Shown here: positions 35,479-48,772 of the stretch, piece after piece
How the letters are laid out: the number at the start of each line of letters is the position of its first letter
How positions within the stretch are numbered: the first letter of the stretch is position 1
Assembly: GCF_004421185.1 (NCBI RefSeq)
Contig: NZ_LXQB01000023.1
Span: 1 to 64,000 of the forward strand
Length of the DNA: 64,000 bases
Reading direction: 5' to 3'
From: Methylacidiphilum sp. Yel
GTDB taxonomy: Bacteria; Verrucomicrobiota; Verrucomicrobiia; Methylacidiphilales; Methylacidiphilaceae
The notes under the pieces: model-generated
Database searches by the model: none
Seen by the model: only the letters and a program-made list of their open reading frames with translations
Told to the model about the DNA's origin: nothing
Position numbers and translations under genes: made by a program

Positions 35479-36318
35479 CTACCGAACTTGTTGAAGGACT
35501 TCTTTTTCCACTTCTGGATATTTTTTGAAAAGCTTTTCTAATAGAATAGAGCACAGCACCTCTGGCTCCTCCCCTTCCATCATTTCCGCTGGACCTCTCG
35601 AACTTTGAGGAGCAAATACCTTGCCTACCACTGTTGGGGATCCCTTAAGACCAATCTTTGATATATCTTCAATCCCTGCATCCATCCTATTCCAAATTTT
35701 TACAGGGGCTTTAGCAGCACGAATCATATTGGGCAAGGAGGCATAACGGATAGCGCTGTGGCCATCAAGAATCGTCATCAAACAGGGTAATTGTGAGGAG
35801 ACAACCTGAATGCCCTTTTCACTTTTTCGGTGTACCAAAACTTTCTTTTTTTCATAATCGATATGCTTGATTTCTTGGACATAGGTCAACAGCTGCAATC
35901 CAAGTCGTCTAGCCACTCCTGGTCCAACCTGTCCTGTATCCCCATCAATTGTTTGCTTGCCAGCAAAAACGATGTCGATTTTCCGACAGGAATCGATTTT
36001 TTTTAACGCCGCTGCCAACGCATAAGAAGTGGCCAGCGTATCGGATCCTGCAAAGGCCCTATCCGACAAGAGGATCGCCTCATCGGCTCCATAAGAAAGG
36101 GCTTTTCTCAACGCTGCCTCTGCCTGTAAAGGCCCCATGGAAAGAACCGTCAAAAAGCTGCCATAGGCATCCTTCAATTCCAAAGCTTTCTCAAGAGCAA
36201 ATAGATCATATGGATTGAGGATTGCCGGTACACCTTGGCGCATAATCGTTCCTGTCTGAGGATGGACTCTAATCTGGCTTGAATCTGGAACTTGTTTTAC
36301 AAGAATGACTACATGCAT
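35479..36318 (-). CDS. fixA: Electron transfer flavoprotein beta subunit FixA
   Basis: A 279-residue ETF beta subunit. It begins MHVVILVKQVPDSS, followed by NPYDLFALEKALELKD, LSYGADEAILLSD and the NAD/FAD-proximal GKQTIDGDTGQVGPGVA, typical of the FixA group of bifurcating ETFs. It starts 12 bases after nifW and is followed by fixB. The association with nif genes in one transcript supports a role in electron supply to nitrogenase. Confidence 0.95.
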   Translation of the reverse strand: MHVVILVKQVPDSSQIRVHPQTGTIMRQGVPAILNPYDLFALEKALELKDAYGSFLTVLSMGPLQAEAALRKALSYGADEAILLSDRAFAGSDTLATSYALAAALKKIDSCRKIDIVFAGKQTIDGDTGQVGPGVARRLGLQLLTYVQEIKHIDYEKKKVLVHRKSEKGIQVVSSQLPCLMTILDGHSAIRYASLPNMIRAAKAPVKIWNRMDAGIEDISKIGLKGSPTVVGKVFAPQSSRGPAEMMEGEEPEVLCSILLEKLFKKYPEVEKEVLQQVR

Positions 36319-36330
36319 AAAAACATTTCT

Positions 36331-36696
36331 TTATTGTGTTTTCCTTTTGAGTTTCTCCTTCCCTACCAATGTATCAATGGATACAAATTGAATGGCTTTC
36401 TGTGGCAGATGATTCCCCTGCTCTTTAAATACTTTAAAAACCTTTTCATTCTGGGCAGTAGAATGGACAAAATCTTCGTAGGCCCTAGCAAGGAGCTCAG
36501 CATAAGATTGCTTGATCTCCTCATCCGTTTTCGAAGAGATATCTAAAGAGGCCTCAGCTATATAATCATGAAATCTTTGCAGGATATGGAGCCTATAGAC
36601 CCTAAGCACTCTTAGATCATAGGGAACCTCAAACAATTTAAAGAAATCTTCGGCTGCTTCGAGTTTTTCCATCTGTTTCAAAATAGCTTCAGCCAT
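36331..36696 (-). CDS. nifW: Nitrogenase stabilizing/protective protein NifW
   Basis: A 121-residue NifW, which associates with the MoFe protein and helps protect or mature it under oxygen. The family core LEAAEDFFKLFEVPYD and RLHILQRFHDYI is intact. The start at 36696 is preferred because AGGAAG stands just ahead of ATG; the frame opens 14 codons further upstream without such a site. It sits between the SIR2-like gene and fixA. Confidence 0.92.
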   Translation of the reverse strand: MAEAILKQMEKLEAAEDFFKLFEVPYDLRVLRVYRLHILQRFHDYIAEASLDISSKTDEEIKQSYAELLARAYEDFVHSTAQNEKVFKVFKEQGNHLPQKAIQFVSIDTLVGKEKLKRKTQ

Positions 36697-36854
36697 TGCA
36701 CTTCCTGTTCTTTCTGAGTTCCTTTTAGCAGTTATCATGCCAATAGTTGCTTGCAGGATGTCACTCTGGGAGAAAATTTAGCATGCGAACAAGACCTTTC
36801 ATTTCTGTTAATTTTCTTACATTTTAGCCCAGGCCTGGCTGGATATATACCCCA

Positions 36855-37727
36855 TTATGACAAAGGCAAAGCAAATGAGGGGGAAGCAAAAAGTTTATGC
36901 GCAAAAACATCCAGTGGCAGATCTAGCTGTTTTATGTTTTGTTCGATAAGAAACCGCGTTTCGTTTTTTGTTAGGGGACTAGTAAGAACTGCCCAGTGAG
37001 CAGCAGAAGATCTTTTAATGATCTGTCTGGCCCATGTCCTTTCGATTTGGCTTTGGAACCGGCAACCTAAAAAAAGAAAATGCTTGTCTTTTCTTAATTC
37101 CTTTATCAGATCTGGAATAGGAGTCTGGATGTCTATTTCTGTCAAGACTTCAACATAGTCTGAATCAGATATTATGAAATTTTTTTGAGGTTTTACTGAG
37201 CCTAGTGGCTTGTAAAGGACGGTTTGCCATACAAAGGCTGCGTCCATTCCAACCTCCCTGTCTTTCCAATCGTAAGCTTTTACCCAGTTCCCAGGGTATT
37301 CTGCCTGACTTACTCCTTGAATCTGTCCCCAAGATTGCCTTTCTTCTCTCAAAGCAACGCTAAAAGAAGCATCATACCAAACATCCACCACCAGGGGAAG
37401 TTGGGGGATTCGAGCCACCCATCGTTGCAGATCGTTTGGTTCCAACTCAGCATCAAATATCTGGCTTAAAAGAGTTTTTAATGTTTTTCTATGCCTATAA
37501 TTTTCAATGTACTGGCTGGCACTCCAAAGGTTTTTTCTTATTCTGGAAGGGACTGCAACCAATGCAGCTAGTCTTTCAGCAAGCATTTCAGGACTTTGAG
37601 GAACAGATTCTGCGTTCTTGCTAAATCCTAAAATACCCGGTCCTAGGAATGGAACGACTTTCCCCAATGCCATAAATGCTACAATCTCTTCTAGATCCCT
37701 TTCAATTTTGTTCGTTTCATTTTCCAT
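36855..37727 (-). CDS. SIR2-like domain protein in the nif operon
   Basis: A 290-residue protein with a SIR2-like (NAD-binding) fold. LGKVVPFLGPGILG (about residues 22-35) matches the glycine-rich NAD loop, and VVDVWYDASFSVAL corresponds to the T-T-N-x-D region of such domains, though the T-T-N is replaced. KHFLFLGCRFQSQIERTW near residue 226 matches the family's late strand and helix. Deacetylase activity is unlikely to be conventional. It overlaps the start of the small upstream gene's end by 11 bases and precedes nifW, so it belongs to the nif transcript; its role in nitrogen fixation is unknown. Confidence 0.7.
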   Translation of the reverse strand: MENETNKIERDLEEIVAFMALGKVVPFLGPGILGFSKNAESVPQSPEMLAERLAALVAVPSRIRKNLWSASQYIENYRHRKTLKTLLSQIFDAELEPNDLQRWVARIPQLPLVVDVWYDASFSVALREERQSWGQIQGVSQAEYPGNWVKAYDWKDREVGMDAAFVWQTVLYKPLGSVKPQKNFIISDSDYVEVLTEIDIQTPIPDLIKELRKDKHFLFLGCRFQSQIERTWARQIIKRSSAAHWAVLTSPLTKNETRFLIEQNIKQLDLPLDVFAHKLFASPSFALPLS

Positions 37728-37941
37728 CGGTTTCCTTTTCCTTTTTCAGCTTTTCTAAATATTCCCTCGAAAGCCTGAAAATACCTCTCCCACCAGACAA
37801 GGCTTGGAATTTATCCCCAGCTTTTCCCCAAAGAAAGTAAAACCAGTCTTGTGCCGATACATTGAAAGGTCTTTCAGAAATCTCCCTTACCCCACCATCC
37901 GGCCCAAATCGCACATGAACTATAAGAGGTCGTTCATTCAT
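37717..37941 (-). CDS. Small nif-operon protein of unknown function
   Basis: A 74-residue protein that I do not recognise. It contains a beta-type N-terminus (LIVHVRFGPDGGVREI), a Trp/Phe-rich middle (DWFYFLWGKAGDKF) and a Lys/Glu-rich C-terminal helix. It lies 13 bases after the DegT-like gene and overlaps the SIR2-like gene by 11 bases, which makes translation likely and ties it to the nif transcript. It is not NifT, which lies two genes upstream. Confidence 0.65.
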   Translation of the reverse strand: MNERPLIVHVRFGPDGGVREISERPFNVSAQDWFYFLWGKAGDKFQALSGGRGIFRLSREYLEKLKKEKETDGK

Positions 37942-37954
37942 CGTAGCTCTCTTT

Positions 37955-39103
37955 TCAGTAAATAGCGGCTCCAGCCCCTACATTCAAGGAAGCATCCTTA
38001 AGGGTTTTGACAATACAAGCAACTTGTTCAAAATCTAATAGCCCATGGAAAGGCAAGGCGATGGTTCTATCGGCTACTCGTTCGCTCATCGGCAACATCC
38101 CCTTATACACCCCACTTTCCATTGCCCAACTAGAGGTATGCAAAGGATAACAATAAGGAAAAGCTTCTATATTCTCCCGTTTTAGATCTTCAATAATAGC
38201 ATCTCTGCTAGATCGGGAAAACCTTGTACCCAAATGTACAACATAAGTAAACCAATGAACCTCCGTAGCTTCTGGTGAAACATAGGGATCTTTTATTCCC
38301 TCAAAACCACAGAGAAGCTGCGTATAAAATGCTTCTACATCCTTTCTTTTTTGTAAAATAGTATCGATTCTATTCAATTGAGCTAAACCAAGAGCAGCTT
38401 CTAGATTGCTCATCGAACAACCTAAAGAAGGTAGTCTTGATTTGACAACTGATTTTCTTTCCTCAGCCGTTCTCTCTCTCATCATTCTAAGGTGAAAGGC
38501 GAGTTCCTCTGAATCCGTCACCACCATGGCTCCCCTGCCTGTCAGAAGAGCTGAAGGTTGTGAAAAATCGAAAATCGATAGGATGCCAAAGGAACCGACA
38601 ATTTTGCCTTGATAAACCGATCCAATCGATTCGGTTGCATCCTCTATCAGATAAAGAGAATTTTCCTTTGCTATTTTTTCTAGTGCGGACCAATTGGCAG
38701 GATGACCATTTGGGTTCAATCCAACGAGCGCTTTGGTCTTTGGGCTCAGAGCTTTTACTATTTTTGCTGGATCAATTTCCATAGACCAATAATCGATGTC
38801 CACATACTTCGGGGTAAGCTCTGCCCAAAGCAAAACCTGACCAAGATCCCGCCAAGATGCGGCTGAAAGAATAACTTCACTCCCTTTCTTTAAGCCAAGA
38901 GCCTTTAAACAGAGGAAAAAAGCAACTTTAGAACTGCAAAAACTAACGCCAAATTTTCTGCTAACATACTGTGTAAAACTTCTTTCAAATAATTCTATTT
39001 CAGATCCTTCGCTAAGTTCATTTGAGCTAAGGATCCGATACAACACCTCTAGCTCTTGATTGGTCATATCAGGATCTGAAAACTTTATCGATTTTGCCTT
39101 CAT
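37955..39103 (-). CDS. DegT/DnrJ/EryC1-fold protein lacking the PLP lysine
   Basis: A 382-residue protein of the DegT/DnrJ/EryC1/StrS aminotransferase fold, encoded between nifT and the small nif gene. The N-terminal core and LYLIEDATESIGSVYQGK (family cofactor-binding Asp region) are normal. The segment that should carry the Schiff-base lysine reads FDFSQPSALLTGRGAMVV; aligned to the usual F-S-F-x-x-x-K-x-L-x-T-G, the lysine is Ser. It therefore is not expected to transaminate. ATG at 39103 is preferred over an upstream TTG. A regulatory or binding role in nitrogen fixation is possible. Confidence 0.8.
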   Translation of the reverse strand: MKAKSIKFSDPDMTNQELEVLYRILSSNELSEGSEIELFERSFTQYVSRKFGVSFCSSKVAFFLCLKALGLKKGSEVILSAASWRDLGQVLLWAELTPKYVDIDYWSMEIDPAKIVKALSPKTKALVGLNPNGHPANWSALEKIAKENSLYLIEDATESIGSVYQGKIVGSFGILSIFDFSQPSALLTGRGAMVVTDSEELAFHLRMMRERTAEERKSVVKSRLPSLGCSMSNLEAALGLAQLNRIDTILQKRKDVEAFYTQLLCGFEGIKDPYVSPEATEVHWFTYVVHLGTRFSRSSRDAIIEDLKRENIEAFPYCYPLHTSSWAMESGVYKGMLPMSERVADRTIALPFHGLLDFEQVACIVKTLKDASLNVGAGAAIY

Positions 39104-39135: not shown

Positions 39136-39345
39136 TTAGCCTTCAATCTTTCGCGCTTCCAGGGTTATAGGCAATTTTGTATCTGGAGGCATTTCAGGCA
39201 GAAGAAATTTCATCCCATTGGCAAGTGTAACAACGCCTCCAAACAACTCTTTTTTGTCAGAGCTGATGATCGGTTCCTCCAAATCTTTTTTTGCGATATA
39301 AATCGTTATTTCACCAGCTTCCTTCTTTCTAAGCATGATTTTCAT
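39136..39345 (-). CDS. nifT: NifT/FixU family protein
   Basis: A 69-residue NifT, a small protein of unclear function found in most nif clusters. MKIMLRKKEAGEITIYIAKK and DLEEPI match the family's start almost exactly, and LANGMKFLLPEMP the middle. It is the first gene after a sigma-54 promoter (39372-39387). The leader predicted from that promoter is only about 16 bases and shows no strong Shine-Dalgarno. Confidence 0.92.
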   Translation of the reverse strand: MKIMLRKKEAGEITIYIAKKDLEEPIISSDKKELFGGVVTLANGMKFLLPEMPPDTKLPITLEARKIEG

Positions 39346-39371: not shown

Positions 39372-39387
39372 AGCAAGGAAGATGCCA
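39372..39387 (-). promoter_or_regulatory. Sigma-54 promoter of the nifT-fixABCX block
   Basis: On the minus strand TGGCATCTTCCTTGCT matches the -24/-12 consensus (TGGCAC-N5-TTGCW) with GG and GC at the exact spacing. Transcription would start near 39361, just ahead of nifT. A NifA-type site lies about 144 bases upstream of that start. Confidence 0.8.
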
Positions 39388-39497: not shown

Positions 39498-39513
39498 TGT
39501 CGAAAAACAAACA
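39498..39513. promoter_or_regulatory. NifA upstream activator site for nifT
   Basis: TGTCGAAAAACAAACA fits TGT-N10-ACA, the NifA-binding pattern, at about -144 relative to the predicted nifT transcription start. The pattern is short and AT-rich, so the support comes mainly from its position. Confidence 0.6.
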
Positions 39514-39530: not shown

Positions 39531-39860
39531 TCACTTAGCAACACTGAAACTTTCTCCACAACCACAACTTCCCGTCGCCTTCGGATTATTAAAAACGAAC
39601 CGTTCCTTAAAAGGATCCTTAATATAATCAAGCACAAGACCATCCAGCAGTTTGAAAGATTCCTTATCCACCACTAGTTTTCCCCCAGGAAAATCCCACA
39701 CAGTATCCTCCGATTCAATCTGCCGAACATAATCCAATCGATAAGAAAAACCAGCACAGCCTGAACGCACTACCGCCAGCCTTAAGGCAACAGAATCTTT
39801 TTTCCCCAACAACGCCTTCGCTAGCTTCTCCTGGGCGCTTTGGGTTATGGAAATAGCCAT
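39531..39860 (-). CDS. Nif-associated A-type iron-sulfur carrier (second of pair)
   Basis: A 109-residue HesB/IscA carrier. The three cysteines are in VRSGCAGFSY and GSCGCGESF. The start at 39860 is fixed by GGGAGG upstream of ATG; the longer open frame runs back into the preceding gene. It follows the other carrier by 28 bases on the same strand, downstream of a sigma-54 promoter. Closest in style to IscA proteins of nif clusters, it probably delivers clusters for nitrogenase maturation. Confidence 0.9.
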   Translation of the reverse strand: MAISITQSAQEKLAKALLGKKDSVALRLAVVRSGCAGFSYRLDYVRQIESEDTVWDFPGGKLVVDKESFKLLDGLVLDYIKDPFKERFVFNNPKATGSCGCGESFSVAK

Positions 39861-39888
39861 GGCAATCGCCTCCCTTTTTTGTTTGATT

Positions 39889-40290
39889 TTATGGAGTACA
39901 ATTTGCTGAAAACGAAGATCCGCAACTGCAGGTAGATCCCGCATTTGGATTATGGATGACAAAACGGGCACCCTCGAGATTTTCTTCATAATCGATCTGT
40001 GCACCTCTCAAGTACATATGACTCTGTGGATCGATCACAAGAGAAACTCCCCCCATTTCATAAAGGATATCCCCTTCTTCGATCTCTCGATCAAAGGCAA
40101 AATTATATTGGTAACCTGAGCAACCACCTCCAGTAATAAAAATTCTTAGCTTGAGTTCTTTGTCCCGCTCTTCCTCAATTAAGGATTTTATTTTTTGTAG
40201 GGCTGCTTCTGTTAGTTCAATACGCCGCCTTTGGTTTTCAGCTGCATTGTCCAAAAGGTCCTGGACACTTTTTTCCGAAGTTCTTTTCAT
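39889..40290 (-). CDS. Nif-associated A-type iron-sulfur carrier (first of pair)
   Basis: A 133-residue HesB/IscA/ErpA-type carrier with cysteines in [13 protein letters not shown] and STCSCGSSF and a 35-residue polar N-terminal extension. The start at 40290 is chosen because AGGAG lies 5 bases before that ATG. It is transcribed away from nifA, from a sigma-54 promoter whose predicted start leaves a leader of only about 13 bases that still contains the Shine-Dalgarno. A second carrier follows in the same transcript. Confidence 0.9.
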
Positions 40291-40313
40291 ATGTTCTCCT
40301 TTTTCTTTTTTTG

Positions 40314-40329
40314 AGCATGAATCATGCCA
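40314..40329 (-). promoter_or_regulatory. Sigma-54 promoter of the iscA pair
   Basis: On the minus strand TGGCATGATTCATGCT has GG and GC at the -24/-12 spacing; the T-T before GC is A-T here, so it is a slightly weaker match. The predicted start near 40303 lies just upstream of the carrier gene. No TGT-N10-ACA site was found near it. Confidence 0.65.
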
Positions 40330-40401
40330 AAAGTTCCTATGCGAATGGACTTGCGTTTCTAAAAATTGAGTACCTTGGTTGAGCAATTATGACAATTTAT
40401 A

Positions 40402-40417
40402 TGGCACAGCCTTTGCT
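40402..40417 (+). promoter_or_regulatory. Sigma-54 promoter of nifA
   Basis: TGGCACAGCCTTTGCT is an almost perfect -24/-12 element. The predicted start near 40428 gives a 28-base leader to nifA. No NifA or NtrC site was seen in the 100 bases upstream. The promoter makes nifA itself sigma-54 dependent, either autoactivated or under another enhancer-binding protein. Confidence 0.8.
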
Positions 40418-42218: not shown

Positions 42219-43076
42219 TCAGCGCTCTATCGGAGCGCCCACCTTGTTCCCCCATTCCGTCCAGGAACCGTCATAATTTTTTACATTTTTATGACCCAAT
42301 AAGTACTTCAATACAAACCAGGTATGGCTAGAACGCTCGCCTATGCGACAATATACGACTGTTTCTTTTTCAGGATCTAATCCAGCTTGTTTTTCATAAA
42401 TGTCTCGCAGCTCAGCAATAGATTTAAATGTGCCGTCTTCTTTTACCGCCGTTTTCCAAGGAACACTTTTGGCCCCTGGAATGTGACCTCCACGTAACAC
42501 CCCTTCTTGTGGATATTCAGGCATGTGAAGAAGCTCTCCAGAATATTCCCCTGGACTACGTACATCAATCAGCGGACCCTTCGCCTTTAAAAAATCGAGC
42601 ACGCCATTATAAAAGATCCGAATGTCTTCATCCATTCTTTTGGAGGGGACTGGATAATGAGTCCTTTCAAAAGAAGGTTTTTCTTTCGTTAGAGGAAGAC
42701 CGAGTTTAATCCATTTGTCTCGGCCCCCATTAAGGATTTTCGATTTTTTATGATCAAACAATTCAAAGGCCCACAGCGCATAACAAGCCCACCAGTTAGA
42801 TTTATCCCCATAAAATATACAGGTCGTATGAGGAGTTATGCCATTACGGGAACAAAGTTCAGCAAACTTTTCCGCAGAAATATAATCACGAATGATTGGG
42901 TCTTGTAAATCCTTGCGCCAATCGATATGTACGGCTCCAGGAATATGTCCCGTATCATAAAGCAACACGTCTTCGTTGCTTTCAATAATCCGAATATCCG
43001 GAGCAAGAGAATTTAAATTTTGCGCAAGCCATTCTATTTCTACTATCTTCTCCTCAAACACATAACCAGTACTCAT
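42219..43076 (-). CDS. Two-domain thiosulfate sulfurtransferase (rhodanese)
   Basis: A 285-residue tandem rhodanese. The N-terminal domain (about 20-145) lacks the catalytic Cys; the C-terminal domain (about 165-280) carries it in [14 protein letters not shown], the SseA-type active-site loop. It transfers sulfane sulfur to cyanide or another thiophile. As the last gene of the nifB block, directly after nifQ, it matches the nifQ-rhdN arrangement of Azotobacter and may supply sulfur for cofactor or Fe-S assembly. On the minus strand the gene ends in a small GCGCT/AGCGC stem with a T run 17 bases further on, a weak terminator candidate. Confidence 0.9.
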
Positions 43077-48756: not shown

Positions 48757-48772
48757 AGCAAAAGCTGTGCCA
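48757..48772 (-). promoter_or_regulatory. Sigma-54 promoter of the nifB operon
   Basis: On the minus strand TGGCACAGCTTTTGCT is a near-perfect -24/-12 element. The predicted start is near 48746, 24 bases before nifB. Two TGT-N10-ACA sites lie about 154 and 187 bases upstream of it, in the 355-base space shared with the mercury-resistance promoter. Confidence 0.85.

Follow-up and report, generated by a model that had tools for sequence, protein, structure and literature searches.

Here we asked why genes for a DegT-like protein, a small protein and a SIR2-like protein should lie inside the nitrogen-fixation operon of Methylacidiphilum, a hot-spring methanotroph of the Verrucomicrobiota, and whether the two larger products can still be the enzymes that their family names imply. 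The stretch analysed, called here the window, comprises 64,000 nucleotides of Methylacidiphilum sp. Yel (NZ_LXQB01000023.1, positions 1 to 64,000).

A tight run of three genes between nifT and nifW

Open reading frames and family profiles gave the order nifT, DegT-like gene, 74-residue gene, SIR2-like gene, nifW, fixA, fixB and fixC, all on the minus strand. Behind nifT (fixU; 39136-39345; PF06988, 1.3e-27, and TIGR02934) comes the gene for a DegT-like putative pseudo-aminotransferase of 382 amino acids (37955-39103; PF01041, 1e-73), then that for an alpha/beta protein of 74 amino acids and no known family (37717-37941, recognised as a reading frame and by its conservation), and then that for a SIR2-like protein of 290 amino acids with the fold of an NADase, probably a pseudoenzyme (36855-37727; PF13289, 1.1e-21). 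These are followed by nifW (36331-36738; PF03206, 2.3e-32) and by fixA, the first gene of fixABC (35479-36318, called from its reading frame, with FixA also a neighbour in relatives). The nifT and DegT-like genes are separated by 32 nt and the DegT-like and small genes by 13 nt, the small and SIR2-like genes overlap by 11 nt, and no terminator was found when we looked for one in the gap between the SIR2-like gene and nifW. An earlier note on this DNA had described the three genes as a tight, partly overlapping run between nif genes, and the layout bears this out. The dN/dS values indicate purifying selection on all three, and this selection together with their conservation rules out that they came to lie together by chance. 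Directly upstream of the nifT promoter stand two adjacent IscA/HesB-like iron-sulfur assembly genes (39531-40386, minus strand), and a reading frame near nifA (42219-43076, minus strand) resembles, from its translation judged by eye, a two-domain rhodanese sulfurtransferase.

The small reading frame is a real gene: it is kept beside the DegT-like and SIR2-like genes, its relatives occur in two phyla, and dN/dS ranged from 0.06 to 0.35 across every pair measured (<0.4 throughout), which rules out a spurious frame. The earlier note had called its product novel, and we likewise obtained no family match. Its model has a confident alpha/beta fold (pLDDT 86.8), for which a Foldseek search of the PDB returned no match below E 0.3; a weak sequence match to succinyl-CoA ligase (E 0.39) was dismissed.

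Promoter and expression

Upstream of nifT, 27 nt from its start, lies a sigma-54 -24/-12 element, TGGCATCTTCCTTGCT (39372-39387, minus strand). A further 110 nt upstream there is a NifA upstream activator-like site, TGT-N10-ACA (39498-39513). All five Methylacidiphilum species available keep both, with the NifA site between -168 and -187 relative to the nifT ATG. The earlier note had placed the three genes behind a sigma-54 promoter, and the element is indeed real and conserved, but it precedes nifT and not the DegT-like gene itself. NifA and sigma-54 would switch on the three genes together with nifT, nifW and fixABC. A separate sigma-54 promoter for nifW was rejected, as its sole match (36727-36742) has two mismatches and overlaps the nifW start codon, and was judged to be due to chance. 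The window also holds two perfect TGGCAC-N5-TTGCW elements, at 40402-40417 (plus strand) and 48757-48772 (minus strand); the former stands some 39 nt ahead of the start of the divergent nifA (40456), so that transcription of nifA may also depend on sigma-54.

In Methylacidiphilum fumariolicum SolV, the genes that correspond to the two flanks are reported to rise under N2 fixation, fixU (Mfum_690015) from 164 to 2265 RPKM (14-fold) and nifW (Mfum_690011) from 62 to 2260 RPKM (36-fold) (PMC3404531). Between them are three locus-tag slots, Mfum_690012-690014, matching the number of the three genes, and these tags are absent from the main text of that paper.

Distribution of the three genes

Scanning GTDB genomes with the SIR2-like protein gave 501 confirmed relatives, whose best 80 loci, picked by similarity and not by context, were examined; neighbours were counted in the 72 loci that had 3 kb or more of sequence upstream. 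Among these best matches, the SIR2 homologue lay just downstream of nifT, within 4 kb and on the same strand, in 72/72 loci, with a DegT gene beside it in 63 and the small gene in 41, and over the full 80 the 74-residue gene accompanied the SIR2 locus in 47. A separate comparison of Methylacidiphilaceae loci showed it beside DegT and SIR2 in every one examined. The three-gene set is nif-linked across phyla, in Verrucomicrobiota and many Pseudomonadota. The linkage that the earlier note had proposed was thus recovered, and the opposite pattern, of genes lying apart and away from nif, was not found in these loci.

The usual run reads nifB-fdxN-LRR-nifZ-nifZ-nifT-(Cys-containing small protein)-DegT-(2Fe-2S ferredoxin)-small-SIR2, and nifB, fdxN and nifZ belong to the same run in most SIR2 loci. 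Proteobacterial loci have the module after nifB-nifZ-nifT, whereas fixA was found directly after it only in the Methylacidiphilaceae loci. The proteobacterial version carries two more genes, one for a small protein with conserved cysteines in the gap between nifT and DegT and one for a 2Fe-2S ferredoxin in the gap between DegT and the small gene (for example, L013:5930-6193 and L013:7365-7697), and no counterpart of either was detected in the Methylacidiphilaceae loci. Rhizobial plasmids show nifZ-nifT-SIR2 with no DegT gene listed.

Counts over whole genomes point in the same direction. Among 274 gammaproteobacterial genomes, SIR2 relatives occur in 21, nifT in 25 and both in 19, and in the two that have the SIR2 relative and no nifT, nifH or nifHDK adjoins the SIR2 gene. 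The genes are nested: nifT-type SIR2 is found in 9 of the 21, DegT in 8 of these 9 and the small gene in 6 of these 8, all in genomes with nifT. DegT scores are 479-711 bits in the eight against 332 in the next of the 274 genomes, of which no further one reaches E 1e-4 for the small protein. Five of 210 alphaproteobacteria have SIR2 and seven have nifT, and 5/5 with SIR2 also have nifT; conversely, SIR2 is missing from 6/25 gammaproteobacteria and 2/7 alphaproteobacteria that carry nifT. Within Methylacidiphilaceae the genomes with SIR2 and those with nifT are the same 12, the single member without nifT having no SIR2. Where copy number was counted, 9/9 genomes had a single SIR2 copy. Across 338 Verrucomicrobiota genomes the SIR2 family is confined to Methylacidiphilaceae (5 members); the sixth match is a weak one to a distant SIR2_2 protein, which retains the catalytic Asn and His. 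Judged from this distribution, the Methylacidiphilaceae block may have been gained laterally; the SIR2 tree resolved no donor, as its very long outgroup branch leaves the positions close to the root uncertain.

The remaining gammaproteobacterial SIR2 matches have much lower scores, and those aligned form a separate group. This second, divergent subfamily (L119:13664-14557, L117:13055-13903, L123:7432-8286) is transcribed divergently beside nifH, or lies near nifB and nifHDK, where the contig allows; in L125 and L126 the stretch read contains no nif gene. The nifH-linked proteins keep the catalytic Asn (INRD) but carry Met where the catalytic His would be. PST_1325 of Pseudomonas stutzeri A1501, a SIR2 family gene listed as adjoining nifH (PMC11332353), fits this subfamily when judged by position alone.

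Catalytic residues and folds

Residues of the SIR2-like protein were compared with ThsA over 68 rows, numbered on a 289-residue alignment that omits the initial Met. The catalytic Asn (TTNYD in ThsA) is Trp116 in 68/68, the catalytic His (KMHGD in ThsA) is Leu174 here and Leu, Ile, Phe and others in relatives, with His in none of the 68, and the GAGxS motif is replaced by GPG(V)L. The model, computed from input rows without the two plasmid records, reached pLDDT 92.8 and pTM 0.91, residues 193-197 being the exception to this confidence; these fall within SDYVEVLTEIDIQTPIP, the stretch with the highest conservation in the family. Its best matches by VIA-align are ThsA and DSR2 (Z ~20 over ~250 residues), human SIRT3 scoring Z ~14, so that as modelled the protein is closer to phage-defence SIR2 folds than to deacetylases. 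It differs from these defence NADases in its replaced Asn and His, in having no second domain, in an identity of 16-18% and in being linked to nif instead of defence genes. The earlier note had expected an NAD-binding fold: the fold stands, by PF13289 and by the model, but NAD binding is doubtful given that the catalytic Asn, the catalytic His and GAGxS are all replaced.

The DegT-like protein, aligned with perosamine synthetase 3bn1 and 54 relatives, matches the aminotransferase family over its full length (PF01041 match, residues 12-368), and resembles perosamine synthetases 3bn1 and 3dr4 in the same full-length manner by sequence (1e-41). It departs from them in lacking the Schiff-base (PLP) Lys, which is Ser184 here and Ser in 29, Gly in 23, Ala in 1 and Phe in 1 of the 54, and in a conserved C-terminal tail, ...NVGAGAAIY, that extends past the Pfam domain end at 368. 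ColD-type dehydratases have His in place of the Schiff-base Lys; neither Lys nor His occurs at this position in any of the 54. The earlier note's pseudo-aminotransferase is supported by this complete absence. The pyridine-binding Asp155 is retained in 54/54, and His134 and several pocket residues are kept too; in the window protein the common SGT loop reads SSK. Its best score against the aminotransferase equivalogs (PseC, ArnB and others) is 179 bits, below the cut-off of 423.

Comparison with known nif-linked SIR2 genes

Like the window, several diazotrophs have been described with a SIR2-like gene in a nif cluster: Rhodobacter capsulatus (Rcc03262), Mesorhizobium loti (msi351), Zymomonas (ZMO1821) and Rhizobium etli (plasmid p42d). 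The R. etli gene directly follows nifT by sequence, those of R. capsulatus and M. loti are annotated as neighbours of nifT or fixU, and the likeness of ZMO1821 is taken from the description in the paper and not from a sequence comparison. Rcc03262, listed beside NifT, is reported as undetected at the protein level in a nifA mutant (PMC6925177). The 'sirtuin-like' msi351 is described as closing the run nifB-fdxN-nifZ-fixU-msi351, which a NifA-type promoter precedes, and its insertion mutant as fully effective in nodules (Fix+) (PMC3538637), so that the SIR2 protein is dispensable there. ZMO1821 is reported to be induced under N2 fixation and was taken as a deacetylase, Nif proteins being acetylated (PMC8600466). 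The passages considered from these papers take the protein to be a sirtuin or a deacetylase and say nothing of its lost catalytic residues. For R. etli, neither a DegT nor a small gene is listed next to nifT, whereas the window has the full DegT-small-SIR2 set. A close counterpart of this set is in Methylococcus capsulatus (NZ_CP070492), where in the run nifB-fdxN-LRR-nifZ-nifT-DegT-2Fe2S-hypothetical-SIR2 the three genes follow nifT in unchanged order, with identities of 49% (DegT), 54% (SIR2) and 47% (small); it differs in the two extra genes (the Cys-containing small protein and the 2Fe-2S ferredoxin) and in belonging to a nifB operon, while the Methylacidiphilum set lies between nifT and nifW-fixABC.

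Our literature search for DegT with nifB and nifH returned no relevant paper; we came across no publication on the DegT gene or on the small gene, no mutant of either, and no interaction or binding report for any of the three proteins. The earlier note's description of the system as undescribed applies, then, to these two genes, but not to the SIR2 gene, for which the sources above report NifA dependence or N2 induction in Rhodobacter, Mesorhizobium and Zymomonas and a Fix+ mutant in M. loti.

Proposed role of the module in nitrogen fixation

Taking the residue, fold and distribution analyses together, we favour a nitrogenase-dedicated pseudoenzyme module that aids nitrogenase maturation conditionally, with a probability of about one half, the assembly role being drawn from the gene neighbourhood. 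As judged from sequence, the SIR2-like and DegT-like proteins are probably catalytically dead: they would be pseudoenzymes whose folds are kept under purifying selection while their catalytic residues are lost. Canonical SIR2 or aminotransferase catalysis is unlikely, although residue loss by itself may leave room for a different chemistry. Because the enzyme residues are lost, the two proteins are probably helpers in building or tuning nitrogenase, and their place with nifB, nifZ and nifT points to maturation. They might act there as non-catalytic scaffolds or ligand-binding chaperones alongside the products of nifB-nifZ-nifT. In the predicted complex, contacts would probably be made by the DegT C-terminal tail and by the conserved flexible SIR2 loop (~186-204), and the small protein would be a putative adaptor. 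Since the M. loti SIR2 protein is non-essential in nodules, any role should be conditional or redundant, and the module would better nitrogenase assembly or stability under some conditions without being essential under all.

An alternative, in line with the metabolic sensing or protection module for nitrogenase that the earlier note had suggested, is that the set senses redox or nucleotide state. The SIR2-like protein would still bind, but not hydrolyse, a nucleotide such as NAD(H) or ADP-ribose, the DegT-like protein would bind a PLP-like or sugar-nucleotide ligand, and together they would inform nitrogenase or its electron supply of the metabolic state. The confidently modelled Rossmann-type SIR2 fold, the retention of Asp155 and His134 and the continuation of the operon into the fixABC electron transfer genes agree with this, yet the substitutions in GAGxS, Asn and His and in the SGT loop affect both proteins, and fixA was seen directly after the module only in the Methylacidiphilaceae loci, so that we consider sensing less likely than a part in maturation.

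An active NAD-dependent deacetylase of Nif proteins, as proposed for ZMO1821, would account for the family annotation and for the reported induction and acetylation (PMC8600466), but a protein in which His is absent and Asn is Trp throughout 68 rows, and whose nearest folds are NADases, makes it very improbable. It is equally hard to sustain that the DegT-like protein is a working PLP/PMP enzyme which, assisted by its neighbours, makes or modifies a small molecule destined for nitrogenase or for the cell surface: the full-length fold and the retained pocket residues would permit it, but the Lys is replaced in every relative, the ColD-type His is not used either, and no sugar pathway genes were seen beside DegT in the annotated or scanned loci. 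A phage-defence NADase riding by chance in the nif operon, to which the top structural matches and a weak PADLOC match to ThsA (3.4e-4) might point, is scarcely credible and largely ruled out by the lost residues, the single copy per genome, the NifA-type promoter and the co-occurrence with nifT of nearly all SIR2 genes in the three groups, the other two having nifH adjoining SIR2.

Returning to the maturation module, we put forward tentatively that two former enzymes, a SIR2 NADase and a DegT aminotransferase that are now both dead, are linked by a new small protein into a widespread complex for nitrogenase maturation or tuning. The annotation of its parts as deacetylase and aminotransferase would then be the reason why it has been missed. 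The residue losses argue against the published assumption that nif-linked SIR2 proteins are deacetylases, and the three-gene set becomes a named candidate module for nitrogenase assembly. If it serves efficient assembly across diazotrophs, it would matter for moving nitrogenase to other hosts.
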